DNA of 64,000 nucleotides, from assembly GCF_000024845.1 (NCBI RefSeq), contig NC_013501.1, positions 2,026,874-2,090,873 of the forward strand, in the 5' to 3' direction. The notes beneath the pieces are model-generated. The model saw only the letters and a list, made by a program, of their open reading frames with translations. It was not told the origin of the DNA and did not search any database. Of this stretch, positions 1 to 55,176 are shown piece by piece; the first letter of the stretch is position 1, and every line of letters starts with the position of its first letter. The DNA is from Rhodothermus marinus DSM 4252. GTDB taxonomy: Bacteria; Bacteroidota; Rhodothermia; Rhodothermales; Rhodothermaceae. The position numbers were made by a program, and so were the translations under genes.

Positions 1-157
1 CAAAATCGTACCGCTGGAGCGCCTGTTCGGCCTGCAACAGCAACGCCCGAACGCGAGGATCGACCAGCCGCCGCTCGGTCTGGCGGCTGCTGCAGGCACC
101 GCCCATCAGCATTACGCCGCTCAGCAGGACGTAAAAAATTGTGTGTTGGTAGTTCAT
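1..157 (-). CDS. Lipoprotein, N-terminal part only (cut by left edge)
   Basis: The reading frame starts at the ATG at 155-157 and stays open to the window edge, giving 52 residues. The start is a signal peptide with a lipobox ending in Gly-Gly-Ala-Cys (Cys22), so an exported lipoprotein is expected. The stretch after it (ARG/LEU/GLN/ALA-rich, helical) resembles the start of the neighbouring TPR lipoproteins, but too little is present to call TPR. The ATG overlaps the stop of the upstream TPR gene in an ATGA arrangement, which supports the start and indicates translational coupling in one operon. Confidence 0.7.
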   Translation of the reverse strand, partial: MNYQHTIFYVLLSGVMLMGGACSSRQTERRLVDPRVRALLLQAEQALQRYDF

Positions 158-3179: not shown

Positions 3180-4232
3180 TCAGAACGAAAGTTGAATGCC
3201 CAGACGATTTACGTTGTCGAAGGTGTCGAACGCCGTGTAGGCATAGTTAAACATGAAGCCCACCGAGCCGAAGCGCTGCTGGATCCCCACGCCCAGGCTG
3301 GCTCCTTCCACGTCGGACGGATAGATGTAACCGGCCCGGAGCGCCAGCGTGTTCATCAACACATATTCGGCGCCGATGTGCAGCCGTTCGTCGAAGTCAC
3401 GCGGTCGCTCGGCATCGATGGCCACCAGGAGCTTGTGCATGTTGGGATCCTGGTTGGTCAGATCGAGCAGGTTCATGGCCACCCCGATCCGGAAGGTCAG
3501 CGGGGGTTCGAAGTTCTCCTGCTCGTACTTCAACTCCCGCGAAAAATTGCGGGCGCTGGCGGCAAACGTCAGACTCCGGAACCCCGTGTGATAGATCACG
3601 CCGAAATCAAACGCGATCGTGCTTTTGTTGTAATCTTTGCTGATCAGGTCGCCGCCATCGCCGAAGGCGACCGGGAAGGTGCCCAGATCCTGGCGGACGT
3701 ATTTAACCTGTCCGCCCACGGCGAAGCGGTCGCTCAATGCCCGGGCGTATCCGAAGCCCACGGCCAGCGCGGTAGGACTATAGGTACCGATGTCCTCGTA
3801 ACCGCTCTCGTTGTCGGCCCGGATCGTGCCAAGGAATTCGCCATAGTCGACGGCTACCACCGACACGCCGAAGACCCCATAGATCCCACCGCTCGGACTG
3901 AAGGCCAGCGTTCCGCCGTTGTAGCGAATGTCGGCGATCCACTGGGCCTGCATCAGTGCCAGATGGAAGCGGTCGGTCATCTGGGCCATCGTAGCCGGAT
4001 TGTAGAGCAGGGCCAGCGACGTGTTCAGGGTCTGCGCCGTCGCCGCCGATCCCATGGCCGCCAGGCGGGGATCGAGCGACATGCTCAGAAACTTCAGCCC
4101 TGTCTGGGCGCGCTTTTCAAGCTTTACCTGCTGAAATCCGCTTTCTCCGATCTGCTGGGCATCGGCACGGGGCGCCAGCCAGAGCAACATCAGCAGCAGG
4201 CCCCATTGCCAGCGTGGTAGACGCATCTTCAT
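3180..4232 (-). CDS. PorV/PorQ-family outer-membrane beta-barrel protein (copy A)
   Basis: The 350-residue product starts with a basic n-region and hydrophobic core ending in ADAQ, a typical signal peptide. It then shows the family features: LDPRLAAMGSAATA near residue 55, a LLYNPATMA motif, alternating barrel-like strands and a C-terminal Phe (LGIQLSF). PorV in Porphyromonas is the outer-membrane shuttle of the type IX secretion system; homologues elsewhere are of uncertain role. I chose the ATG at 4232 since earlier ones at 4241 and 4265 add residues that do not fit a signal peptide, and none has a clear ribosome site. It follows the CTD-bearing protein gene, whose product may be its cargo. 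A close paralogue lies at 19573-20607. Confidence 0.8.
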   Translation of the reverse strand: MKMRLPRWQWGLLLMLLWLAPRADAQQIGESGFQQVKLEKRAQTGLKFLSMSLDPRLAAMGSAATAQTLNTSLALLYNPATMAQMTDRFHLALMQAQWIADIRYNGGTLAFSPSGGIYGVFGVSVVAVDYGEFLGTIRADNESGYEDIGTYSPTALAVGFGYARALSDRFAVGGQVKYVRQDLGTFPVAFGDGGDLISKDYNKSTIAFDFGVIYHTGFRSLTFAASARNFSRELKYEQENFEPPLTFRIGVAMNLLDLTNQDPNMHKLLVAIDAERPRDFDERLHIGAEYVLMNTLALRAGYIYPSDVEGASLGVGIQQRFGSVGFMFNYAYTAFDTFDNVNRLGIQLSF

Positions 4233-4283
4233 AGGAATCATCGGTTTGAATTCGTTCCAGAACATCCCTTGGCGAATCTGTAA

Positions 4284-4314
4284 GCGGGGAGGCGGGCGCG
4301 ATCCGCCTCCCCGC
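4284..4314 (-). other. GC-rich stem-loop between FnIII-CTD and PorV-like genes
   Basis: Perfect 12-bp arms (4284-4295 and 4303-4314) with a 7-nt loop. There is no T-tract on the minus-strand side, so it is not a standard terminator. An attenuating or mRNA-stabilising hairpin that sets the ratio of the two products is possible. I see no equivalent at the same junction in copy B. Confidence 0.6.
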
Positions 4315-4320
4315 CACGGT

Positions 4321-6591
4321 TCATCGAATGACGACGAACTTGCGGATCAACTGCTGTCCGGTCGTGTGGTCTTTGATCACGGCGATGTAAATACCGCTGG
4401 AGACCACCTGCCGGGCGTCCGTGGTCAGGTCCCAGTATTCGTCACCGCTGCCGTCGGTGTGCTCGATTCGTTTCACCAGTTCGCCCAGTTCCGTGTAGAT
4501 CTCAATCGTGCACTGACCGGGGATGTCCAGGAAGCCCAGCTTATCCTGCTGGTCCGGCCAGCGCAGGTTCTGGTCGGCCGCGATGATGTAGGGATTCGGG
4601 ACGACCCGGGCTTTGAAGATGGTCTCACCCGGCGGCCGCTTGAGGATGGCCGGGTCGTAGGTCTGGGCATAGTACCGACTGCTGCGCAGCGGTCGCCCAT
4701 CGGGCGTACCGTTGATCGCCAGCGGGTCGATCGGCGTGGGCTCGCCGACGGCCTGGAGGTAGTAGTAGTAGGCTACGCCACGCGACACGTCGGTATCTTC
4801 ATAGCGGGTCGCGTTGGGCGGGAGTTTGGCGATCAGCTTGTAAGCCGTCGTCGAATCCGGAGCAGGAATCCCGTCATAGCGGTTCTGCGCCCGGTAGAGC
4901 TCCCAGCCGCCCGGCGGCTCCTCGCCGGGATAGGGTTCCCATTCAATTGTGATCTTATCAACTCCGGAGGTTACCTCGAAGCGACGTGGCGGCATGGGCG
5001 GCCGGATGACATTGAAACCGTTGGCGTAGACGGCCCGGGCCCGTTCTATCATCTGGAAGAGCGAGTCGCGGGCGGTCATGACCCATTCGTTCTTGGTCAT
5101 GCCGATGCAGCCTTCCTCGCCTTCGTTGCAGCGCTGATTCGTTTCGGGATTCCACCAGAAGATGGCCTGATCGGCTGCATCGACGCCGTTGGCCAGCACC
5201 TGCCGTTTGTACCACTTACCCAGTTCCAGGCTGAGTTCATCGCTCAGACCGGCGACCCCCTCGACCAGCACCACCCGCACTTCCTGGCCGGGCGCCATAT
5301 CAAAGGGGCCGAAGCTGTAGGCATAGCTCCAGCTGTTATAGCCAATACGCGGATCGCTCTTCTGTGCGGCAAAGTGCTTGACGAAGTCGACCTGCACATT
5401 GGGATCCGGCGGTGGCCAGGCGCAGAAGGCCTGCGAGGGAATGGTGCGGAGGCCCGTCCAGGTGCAGCCCGTGGTGCTGTACTGCCGCACCGGTGCGCCC
5501 TGCTCGATCCACTGCCGCTCCAGCTGCATGGCCTGGACGTTGTTGTGGTTGTTGCTTCCGGTCAGGTCGCCATCGTCCGAGTCGAGGTAGGTCATCACCC
5601 GGGGCTGGGTCGGATCATCCGGAAGCACGGTACCGGGGTCGTGCGGCTGGCCGTCGGCATGGAGCACAAAGGTGCCCACCATCGCCGCACCGCCCAGTCG
5701 GCCTACGGTATCCACATCAAGCGTGTACCACCAGCCGACCGTGTTTTCCCACATGGGGTTGCCGATCGTGTTGAAGCGCGTCTGTTCGGGGATGTAGCCC
5801 AGCCAGGAGAAATGGCCCCGCCAGGTTTCATCCAGACCGTAGTCCTGGTAGCCGTCGCCGACGGCGTCCGTCATCACGTAGCCGCCCCAGGCTGTGGCAT
5901 TGGCACTACCGCCCCAGGAGCCTGCCGGCGCGTTGATCTTCGGACGACGAATGATCGTGATGTACACGTCTTCCAGCGACTGGTCTGGCAACTCGATCTC
6001 GTCGTCGCCATCTACGTTACCGGTGTTGATAAAAGAGTACTCCACGATGTGATAGTCGTCATGGAACTCATTGCTGAGCTGATAGGCTTTCTGGATCATT
6101 GTAATGCCGACCGACGTGTTCACCTCGTTATAGACCATGCGGTCGGCCTTCAGCTCAGGATCCACCTCGTCCAGCGGCGCCGGGCGGCGGAATGATTCGA
6201 GTCCGTCCACCAGCACCAGCGGAGCCTCGAAACGTCCGATCAGACTTATGTTGCGTTCAAAGAACTCACCAATGCCCTCGGTACGGGGACCAATGTGCGA
6301 AACCCGCACCGGAAAATGGGTCCCTTCTTCGCTGGTGAAGTTCTTGACGCTGATCCACAGCGCCTGGCCGTGCATGTAGGACACCTGCGGGCGGATGCCC
6401 GGCCACTGGAACATCACCTCGTCATAGGTTTCGGGCTGGGCACCCCCGCCCACATAGCGGTGCTGGAAGTCGCCTACCGACAGCCAGCGCATGTTCCACT
6501 GCGCTCGGCCGTCGCGGGCCAGCCCGGCGCCCAGCAGCAGCGCCAGGACCAGACCGGTCGTCTGTACCGTTAACCGACGAACCACTTTCAT
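4321..6591 (-). CDS. Exported protein with FnIII and FlgD/type-IX-like C-terminal domain (copy A)
   Basis: The 756-residue product has a signal peptide (start taken at MKVVRRL; the longer frame to 6615 adds eight residues). The middle is a large unrecognised region rich in aromatic residues and Gly. A fibronectin-type-III-like module lies near residues 550-640 (PRRFEVTSGVDKITIEWEPY). The last ~85 residues (VVPNPYI, IEIYTELGELV, DEYWDLTTDARQVVSSGIYI, ending FVVIR) match the FlgD Ig-like / T9SS type A sorting fold. Surface exposure or secretion is therefore inferred. It sits between a TonB receptor and a PorV-like barrel in one transcription unit. Its homologue is at 20648-22852. The ligand or enzymatic role is unknown. 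Confidence 0.75.
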   Translation of the reverse strand: MKVVRRLTVQTTGLVLALLLGAGLARDGRAQWNMRWLSVGDFQHRYVGGGAQPETYDEVMFQWPGIRPQVSYMHGQALWISVKNFTSEEGTHFPVRVSHIGPRTEGIGEFFERNISLIGRFEAPLVLVDGLESFRRPAPLDEVDPELKADRMVYNEVNTSVGITMIQKAYQLSNEFHDDYHIVEYSFINTGNVDGDDEIELPDQSLEDVYITIIRRPKINAPAGSWGGSANATAWGGYVMTDAVGDGYQDYGLDETWRGHFSWLGYIPEQTRFNTIGNPMWENTVGWWYTLDVDTVGRLGGAAMVGTFVLHADGQPHDPGTVLPDDPTQPRVMTYLDSDDGDLTGSNNHNNVQAMQLERQWIEQGAPVRQYSTTGCTWTGLRTIPSQAFCAWPPPDPNVQVDFVKHFAAQKSDPRIGYNSWSYAYSFGPFDMAPGQEVRVVLVEGVAGLSDELSLELGKWYKRQVLANGVDAADQAIFWWNPETNQRCNEGEEGCIGMTKNEWVMTARDSLFQMIERARAVYANGFNVIRPPMPPRRFEVTSGVDKITIEWEPYPGEEPPGGWELYRAQNRYDGIPAPDSTTAYKLIAKLPPNATRYEDTDVSRGVAYYYYLQAVGEPTPIDPLAINGTPDGRPLRSSRYYAQTYDPAILKRPPGETIFKARVVPNPYIIAADQNLRWPDQQDKLGFLDIPGQCTIEIYTELGELVKRIEHTDGSGDEYWDLTTDARQVVSSGIYIAVIKDHTTGQQLIRKFVVIR

Positions 6592-52173: not shown

Positions 52174-54735
52174 CTCTCAATACCAAAAAGGTGCGATTAA
52201 AACTTACCTTCAGGCACGAGCTCGGCAAAGGAATCGCCGCATTTCAATACCAAAAAGGTGCGATTAAAACCAAGCACACGCAGCGTGCGCGTTGCCGTAT
52301 CGCGCATTTCAATACCAAAAAGGTGCGATTAAAACAAGTCGGCCCGCACTTCCAGGCGCTACCTGTTCCCATTTCAATACCAAAAAGGTGCGATTAAAAC
52401 AAAAATGAGGACGTTCACAATTGAAGTCTCTCGTCGATTTCAATACCAAAAAGGTGCGATTAAAACGAGGGCGCTGCGCGATTGCGACCCATGTCCCCCT
52501 CTCATTTCAATACCAAAAAGGTGCGATTAAAACTCAACATCGCTCCCAACAAGCCCTCCCTGGACGACATTTCAATACCAAAAAGGTGCGATTAAAACGA
52601 GCATTGATCACAGTTCTCCGAAACACTCTCTATGAGAATTTCAATACCAAAAAGGTGCGATTAAAACTGCCCATAGACAGCACCTCTGTTGAGTAGATGC
52701 TGTATTTCAATACCAAAAAGGTGCGATTAAAACAAGATACGCAGAAAACCACAAATAAAAATAACCGTCATTTCAATACCAAAAAGGTGCGATTAAAACC
52801 GTCAAAGCCGATCGCCAGCACGCGACTGTCGCGCAATTTCAATACCAAAAAGGTGCGATTAAAACCATCCTCACGCGAAAGACGGCCGTCTCGGCTTTCG
52901 GCATTTCAATACCAAAAAGGTGCGATTAAAACCGGCGGCCCCACGTATTTAAAGCGCTGTACGCCAGCCATTTCAATACCAAAAAGGTGCGATTAAAACG
53001 CTCGATGCACATGGCGCCAAAGAGCGGCACGTCCAGATTTCAATACCAAAAAGGTGCGATTAAAACGCTGGACAACGGCCAGGGCCTGCCCGTCGATTTG
53101 TAATTTCAATACCAAAAAGGTGCGATTAAAACCTGGAGGATCTGCAGCGGCGGATTCCGATCCTGGAGATTTCAATACCAAAAAGGTGCGATTAAAACTT
53201 AACATCTGCCCGCGCTGCGCAGCGCGAGTGGTCCATTTCAATACCAAAAAGGTGCGATTAAAACCGTGCATCAACTGCGCCAACTGCCGCGCGCTTTCTG
53301 ATTTCAATACCAAAAAGGTGCGATTAAAACCCAGCCAGCGCGGTGTTGGCGATAGTGAACATGTAGATTTCAATACCAAAAAGGTGCGATTAAAACGGCC
53401 CGCGAGCATGCTGCAGAGGCGGCGCGGAAGACTAATTTCAATACCAAAAAGGTGCGATTAAAACATCAGAAGAGTTATTTGCAACAAAGTTCGTATAAGC
53501 ATTTCAATACCAAAAAGGTGCGATTAAAACTCGCCAATCTGGCCGAAACGCCTATCTGTATTTCCTTATTTCAATACCAAAAAGGTGCGATTAAAACTCT
53601 GCAATCCGGCCGGCGTGTCAATGCGGATAAATGTGCATTTCAATACCAAAAAGGTGCGATTAAAACGCGATTCGTGCGAACGTGCGCCGGCGTCAGCAAG
53701 AGATTTCAATACCAAAAAGGTGCGATTAAAACCCGCTCCAGTGTGCTGCGCGAGGATGCGACGAGCATATTTCAATACCAAAAAGGTGCGATTAAAACCC
53801 GCTTCGCCGAGGGTGGGGCTGTGGAGCCCGAGCCTATTTCAATACCAAAAAGGTGCGATTAAAACCCTTTGTGTTTTAGTGATCCTTCTGGCGACAATAT
53901 AATTTCAATACCAAAAAGGTGCGATTAAAACGTTCCCGAGTTCGACTGTAAATCTGTAAGTGAAATAATTTCAATACCAAAAAGGTGCGATTAAAACAGC
54001 CTCTGCCAATCCGTTTTCCCAGCTTAAATTTTGCATTTCAATACCAAAAAGGTGCGATTAAAACGCGCCATTCCCATTGACAGACACATGACGCTGCCGG
54101 ATATTTCAATACCAAAAAGGTGCGATTAAAACGTACAAGTGTTGGCCGAAGAAAACGGGCTTGCGCCAATTTCAATACCAAAAAGGTGCGATTAAAACAC
54201 GGAGGTTTGCCATGCGTATCAATGAATTTCTCTATTTCAATACCAAAAAGGTGCGATTAAAACTTTTGCATAGTTAAACAATTGTTCTTTGTTCTTAGCC
54301 ATTTCAATACCAAAAAGGTGCGATTAAAACGTTATATCCGTTAACAATAAAACCGTTGGAGGTAGCTAATTTCAATACCAAAAAGGTGCGATTAAAACCG
54401 CTCGCTACGGCGGAAGACTGGCGGCTCGGCCGGCGTAATTTCAATACCAAAAAGGTGCGATTAAAACCGTACGTTTGGGAATAAGACAATTCCTCATCAA
54501 AACATTTCAATACCAAAAAGGTGCGATTAAAACGGCTGAGGTATGAAGCCGGTGTCATCTACTTCAAGATTTCAATACCAAAAAGGTGCGATTAAAACGA
54601 GTACCTTCCTCAGAGCCAGCACAATCGGCCTTTCGGCATTTCAATACCAAAAAGGTGCGATTAAAACTCGCCATGTAGCGTAAACCTCAACAATAGACGA
54701 CTCCCATTTCAATACCAAAAAGGTGCGATTAAAAC
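52174..54735 (-). CRISPR. CRISPR array, 39 repeats and 38 spacers, transcribed on the minus strand
   Basis: Thirty-nine 30-nt repeats (for example 52241-52270 and 54706-54735) are separated by 38 unique-looking spacers of 35-39 nt. The 38 repeats from 52241 on look identical to me. The first (52174-52203) differs at two positions in its outer end, as expected for the leader-distal terminal repeat. Read on the minus strand, the repeat begins GTTTTAATCG and ends ATTGAAAT, the 8-nt crRNA handle type of subtypes I-A/I-B/III. So the leader is on the right, and a consensus promoter is found there. Some spacers are AT-rich (54264-54300, 54331-54368, 52734-52769), others as GC-rich as the host. No cas gene lies in the window, so type cannot be settled. 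Confidence 0.98.
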
Positions 54736-54765
54736 CCGGCCTTTCAAAGAGCAGAACCGGCTTCT

Positions 54766-54801
54766 GGAGGTCATTATAAGCGATTGAAACCGGAATGTCA
54801 A
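54766..54801 (-). promoter_or_regulatory. CRISPR leader promoter with full sigma70 consensus
   Basis: On the minus strand TTGACA (54796-54801) and TATAAT (54773-54778) are separated by exactly 17 bp. Transcription would start near 54766, about 30 nt before the first repeat (ending 54735). The spacer between the boxes contains GTTTCAATCGC, which resembles the beginning of the CRISPR repeat (GTTTTAATCGC), perhaps a decayed repeat or a leader motif. Confidence 0.85.
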
Positions 54802-54808
54802 GTCCCCG

Positions 54809-54856
54809 AAGTCGTCGACCTCCGATTACCTCTGAAACCCCGGGGGCCGACGACTT
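54809..54856. repeat. Inverted repeat in the CRISPR leader region
   Basis: Arms 54809-54824 and 54841-54856 match at 14 of 16 positions around a 16-nt loop, starting 8 bp upstream of the -35 box. It may be a binding site for a leader protein, a fold in leader DNA or a terminator for upstream transcription. Confidence 0.5.
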
Positions 54857-55176
54857 TTCACAAACAAAATAAACACAACATCTTAAAACAACGGGATCGA
54901 AAATTCCTTGCCCGATCTTTGCTGAATACTTCTCGTTATCACGAAGGACGACGACCGGACGACGAACCTTTCCCTTCAGGAAAACAGCGTTTACACCCGC
55001 ATGAGTCCTTCTTTTCACCGGTCTCAGAATCAAGCCCCGGGTCTTGTTTTCAGTTGCCCACGATCGAGGCTTTCCAGATGAGCGCATGAGAAGCAAATCA
55101 TCCCGGACCGACAACTGACCCCTGCGCCGGCCGGTGCCACCGATGCGACTTTTTCGTTTCTTCACCAAAACCCTGC
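54857..55176. other. CRISPR leader / intergenic region before the tetR promoter
   Basis: About 320 bp with no supportable gene. The left part (54857-54900) is AT-rich and fits a leader. Open frames through here have no ribosome site or domain. The tetR promoter begins at 55177. Confidence 0.55.

Follow-up and report, generated by a model that had tools for sequence, protein, structure and literature searches.

The minus-strand sequence TTGACATTCCGGTTTCAATCGCTTATAAT, read directly at 54801–54773 of the window (the whole analysed stretch of 64,000 nucleotides of Rhodothermus marinus DSM 4252), is very probably the promoter of the CRISPR array that follows it. The sigma-70-type consensus of TTGACA, 17 bp and TATAAT is matched at 12 of 12 bases. 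Judged by its sequence, the element is an ordinary, well-supported and exceptionally clean pre-crRNA leader promoter.

The −35 element TTGACA lies at 54796–54801 and the −10 element TATAAT at 54773–54778, both on the minus strand. TTGACA is present in 11 of the 12 leaders compared (TTGACT in the orthologous leader L010), TATAAT in nine (TATACT in two, TAAAAT in one). The spacer between them, TTCCGGTTTCAATCGCT (54779–54795, minus strand), ends in seven bases, AATCGCT, that are conserved across the leaders; the preceding GTTTC is not. Both boxes are perfect and the spacer is exactly 17 bp, as the first-pass annotation had it; the gap from the −10 element to the first repeat (54706–54735) is 37 bp rather than the 38 bp given there.

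The array (52174–54735, minus strand) consists of 39 repeats, GTTTTAATCGCACCTTTTTGGTATTGAAAT, and 38 spacers of 35–39 nt. The promoter stands at the leader end and is oriented into the array. The repeat farthest from it is degenerate (TTGAGAG for TTGAAAT), as expected of the old end, and this fits a leader at the promoter end. The window's spacers recur neither in the two arrays of the sister genome G002 nor among the 39 spacers read from the second array of the window's own genome; turnover of the arrays since the split is therefore probable.

A housekeeping-type sigma factor would direct RNA polymerase to TTGACA/TATAAT. Transcription is predicted to start at 54765–54766, about 7 nt after the −10 element, near 54766, and to run leftwards on the minus strand. 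About 30 nt of the putatively transcribed leader end (54736–54772, minus strand; it includes AGCCGGTTCTGCTCTTTGAAAGG, which the closer leaders conserve) would be copied, followed by the array. The resulting precursor would be cut by Cas6 into crRNAs.

Conservation among leaders and rarity in the genome

The 504-bp leader was searched in 40 genomes (the own genome and 39 relatives). Each of the six other genomes of the genus has a match, as does the second array of the own genome; the sole match outside the genus among the 40 (L016) is not CRISPR. The set compared consists of 12 leaders, namely 11 with a first repeat from this search (the window's included) and L030, which came from a pattern requiring the perfect promoter. 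That pattern gave 26 matches: L030 was added, L034, L045 and L050 are the same contigs as L012, L011 and L019, and the other 22 (Paenibacillus, one Lachnospiraceae) stand outside the set. The contig of L030 bears the title Rhodobacteraceae; its leader and repeat are of the Rhodothermus type, and it is probably misbinned.

All 12 leaders, some of them close relatives and not independent, carry TTGAC[A/T], 17 bp and TA[T/A]A[A/C]T at 37–39 bp from the repeat. The regular expression itself required TTGAC-17-TA; every locus with leader and first repeat passed it. Free alignment of the 12 places no gap within the promoter. Column identity is 0.99 in CTTGACA and 0.96 in the −10 element, 0.58 farther upstream and 0.75 between the −10 element and the repeat; within the promoter spacer it is 0.94 in AATCGCT and 0.68 in the first ten bases. 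A comparison with leaders of other arrays with the same repeat had been proposed as a check, and it shows the promoter kept in 12 of 12, in the same place. Rfam has no match in the window, L018, L021, L024 or L026.

The genome comprises 3,386,737 bases in two contigs (3,261,604 and 125,133). Across it, perfect TTGACA-16..18-TATAAT occurs at three sites, against none for the reversed control. Two of these belong to the leaders of the genome's two arrays with the window's repeat; the third is near a transporter-like gene. With at most one mismatch and 17-bp spacing there are eight sites, against one in the control. The match is more than chance. A chance agreement with the consensus, devoid of promoter function, is extremely improbable given that all 12 leaders conserve the promoter and that the genome has so few such sites, and nothing was found in its favour.

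Housekeeping promoters of Bacteroidota are of the type TTG/TAnnTTTG. The phylum of Rhodothermus is close to Bacteroidota, and the sigma-70 consensus may not be the main type of the host. Genome-wide, TTGAC-N18-TATNNT occurs 31 times against 4 in the control and the Bacteroidota-type TTTG-N18..20-TANNTTTG 6 times against 8, counts that do not settle the preferred type of the host. A 264-kb sample of gene starts distinguished no promoter type. The cas2 start regions carry TTGC...GTTATCTTG, which is more like the Bacteroidota type.

The repeat-like stretch and the second leader family

Within the spacer, GTTTCAATCGC (54780–54790, minus strand) agrees at 10 of 11 positions with the repeat start, GTTTTAATCGC, and the near-identity reported in the first-pass annotation stands. 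It was suggested there that this could be a decayed repeat incorporated into the promoter; on this reading the promoter would have formed over the 5' end of the repeat. The stretch begins 55 bp upstream of the first repeat, a distance fairly close to the array period of 65–69 bp. In dinucleotide shuffles of the 160-bp leader, the first 11 nt of the repeat were matched equally well in only 5 of 1000, and some 11-mer from either strand of the repeat in 10 of 200; the resemblance to the repeat barely exceeds what chance gives. It ends after 11 nt.

Alignment of the leaders, their tree and a second leader family lead to rejection of the decayed repeat, which is left very improbable. At the aligned place, the 12 leaders agree with the initial 11 bases of their own repeats at 10, 9, 8, 8, 8, 8, 7, 7, 6, 6, 5 and 5 positions. 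Ten of 11 is reached in the window only and nine in its orthologue; the four leaders at 8 of 11 all have GATCAAATCGC. A fuller repeat copy at this place is absent from all 11 other leaders, each of which shows less. When the tree is built with the spacer left out, the pair formed by the window (GTTTC) and its orthologue (GTTCC) is sister to the second-array pair (GATCA), with L030 (GATCA) next; supports are 0.94, 0.96 and 0.81, and deeper nodes are weak. The second-array pair and L030, beside the GTTTC/GTTCC pair in this tree, carry GATCAAATCGC. Most simply, the resemblance would have grown in the window's own lineage. The likeness is thus peculiar to the window leader and weaker in all its relatives, and leaders with an unrelated repeat carry a very similar spacer. 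The tempting reading of a repeat turned promoter is settled as wrong by this comparative evidence; the embedded likeness is most likely coincidence.

The unrelated repeat is GTCCGAARACTTGACCCGATGAAAAGGGGATTACGAC, found in arrays of the 125-kb contig (C2), with relatives in G002, G004 and G006. Twelve leaders of this second family were aligned. Seven have TTGACATT...TATGmT, and TTCCGCTGAAAATCACT and TTCTGATCAAAAACACG are examples of their spacers; in L081 and L082 the 17-bp promoter is a different one and ends in TATAAT, and L071, L072 and L075 differ more. The spacer of the family, TTCCG...AAAnCnCT, is very similar to that of the window family. Applied to the 12 leaders of the window family, a position weight matrix (PWM) of the spacer from eight of the 12 second-family leaders gives scores from 4.9 to 14.2; among the genome's 25 other TTGAC-N18-TATNNT sites none exceeds 1.3. 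In the reverse model, seven of eight second-family spacers score above all 25 other sites (1.5 to 16.9 against at most −1.3); L082 fails it, at −11.0. The genome has three copies of the motif CTTGACATTCCGG-n8..14-TTATNAT, each of them in a leader. Since a similar spacer precedes an unrelated repeat, AATCGCT is probably promoter sequence and not repeat. The conserved bases of the spacer appear to be tied mainly to the promoter, irrespective of the repeat behind it; GTTTC before them would have arisen in the lineage of the window array and be repeat-like by chance.

The same seven bases could instead be a leader motif that Cas1-Cas2 recognises as a copy of the repeat start, the other suggestion of the first-pass annotation. 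Their columns are 0.94 identical, AATCGC is found in the repeats of 12 of 12, and CAC replaces CGC in most leaders with the other repeat, a difference that goes with the repeat. Against this, the same positions are kept as AAAnCAC where the repeat lacks AATCGC, as expected of a promoter role, and four leaders whose repeat keeps AATCGC have AATTGC (two), AATCCT or AACCGC. The motif lies about 50 bp from the junction, beyond the known leader-anchoring sites of type II, which are closer to it. Recognition by the adaptation machinery is unlikely, and nothing in the leaders would favour it over promoter function. A shared adaptation motif, GGCCGGTT near −19 in both families, was rejected as weak (only five of 12 second-family leaders beat most shuffles). 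The 125-kb contig, which is of plasmid size, has cas1 genes of its own, so a shared integrase is not required for the two families.

The two families have unrelated repeats and largely unrelated leaders, and the 25 other comparable promoter-like sites of the genome lack the module. Tentatively, and with rather low probability, TTGACATTCCG-n5-AAAnCnCTTATrmT may constitute a CRISPR-dedicated promoter class in Rhodothermus that serves at least two array families and is perhaps co-regulated or read by a dedicated factor. If so, arrays of both families would be switched together. The sharing of this module by array families that are unrelated, and the inverted repeat described below, which is conserved beside the promoter, are of more interest than the promoter itself.

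Several second-family arrays are present in C2 (L069, L073, L077, L081, L085; each with its own leader) and in G002 (L070, L074, L078, L082), and their promoters for the most part resemble that of the window. A GTGACA-N6-TGTCAC palindrome is located downstream of the promoter in second-family leaders.

The upstream inverted repeat and the cas loci

An inverted repeat, GTCGTCGG...GTCGACGAC (54811–54854, minus strand), lies 9 bp upstream of the −35 element and is a candidate operator or accessory-factor site. It is present as GTCGTCGR...TCGACGAC in 12 of 12 leaders, with an invariant right arm, TCGACGAC, and one or two changes in the left arm in L014, L018 and L020. It measures 44–46 bp end to end and stands 9 bp from the −35 element in 11 of the 12 (10 bp in L020). 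A related CGACGAC is found at the cas2 start in all four loci with cas2 beside the leader. In the genome, the 9-mer GTCGTCGAC occurs 59 times (29 and 30), not above the reversed control (72 and 54), and the arm pair GTCGTCG-N20..45-CGACGAC at three places, one of them the window leader, against 19 in the control. As a specific genome-wide operator, GTCGTCGAC was discarded; the 9-mer alone is not informative.

The inverted repeat looks like the site of a regulator or an adaptation factor. A protein bound there would probably regulate the array or help new spacers find the leader. It is about an even chance that a regulator at this site sets the output of the array, as repressor or activator, the promoter then not being constitutive; this is compatible with the promoter reading. 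The invariant right arm, the 9-bp distance in 11 of 12 leaders and the CGACGAC at the cas2 start of four loci speak for such a regulator, and Csa3a of Sulfolobus is a precedent in the available part of PMC9456107. Against it, the motif could equally serve adaptation, and the candidate binder, a WYL protein of the cas operon, has an orthologue in six of the seven genomes of the genus, the exception being G001, where the leader retains the inverted repeat. The WYL regulator as the binder is thereby weakened (G001 has only a distant WYL protein, 35%). A strong promoter is plausible and fits the consensus. Constitutive activity is doubtful, and the promoter is not called constitutive because of the conserved operator-like inverted repeat beside its −35 element.

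The cas operon beside the second array combines type III-A genes (Csm1-5, Csm6-like CARF protein) with type I genes (Cas3, Cas5b-like, DevR/Cas7 protein) and also encodes Cas6, Cas4, Cas1, Cas2 and the WYL regulator. In the window, a stretch at 54917–54957 (plus strand; GTTATC..., GGACGACGAC) resembles the cas2 start region of the second array and is without cas2; the likeness was seen by eye and was not reported by blastn.

At locus L024, cas2 (333–599) and cas1 (601–1866) are arranged tail to tail, with cas2 directed away from the array leader. The same locus holds a PolB-like 3'-5' exonuclease gene (1680–2369) between cas1 and the csm6-like gene, and a Csm5 (3646–5127) with a C-terminal stretch that matches the cold-shock domain below the cut-off. 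A single isolated repeat (one mismatch) is located at about 1483–1512 of L026 (C1:1420882–1420911), and neither a leader nor an array was seen next to it. A weak, split Cas1 match in one frame of 380 aa lies at C1:538419–539090, at neither chromosomal array seen; a similar weak match occurs in three other genomes of the genus.

Comparison with known systems

A literature search found no title on Rhodothermus leaders, which is not proof of absence. The idea of a conserved leader-repeat RNA hairpin, taken from the available part of PMC13187072, was rejected; single-sequence folds gave no common structure.

The CRISPR leader promoter in general, as described in the part of PMC8616872 available, is single, adjoins the first repeat and transcribes the whole array. 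The present one is likewise a single leader promoter next to the first repeat. It differs from that description in its exact sigma-70 consensus and in the very similar module that also precedes arrays with unrelated repeats in the genus.

Leaders of type I-F carry inverted-repeat motifs contacted by Cas2, with IHF (PMC12259127, in its accessible part). Conserved inverted repeats in the leader are a shared trait; unlike the motifs described there, the present one abuts the promoter.

In Sulfolobus, Csa3a binds a leader-distal motif and activates both arrays and adaptation genes; in the type I-A system of Sulfolobus islandicus the motif spans −143 to −94 (both from the portion of PMC9456107 at hand). 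The element described here is similarly conserved and distal in the leader, at −122 to −75 from the repeat, in arrays accompanied by type I genes. It differs from the Csa3a system of that portion in that the promoter beside it is bacterial.
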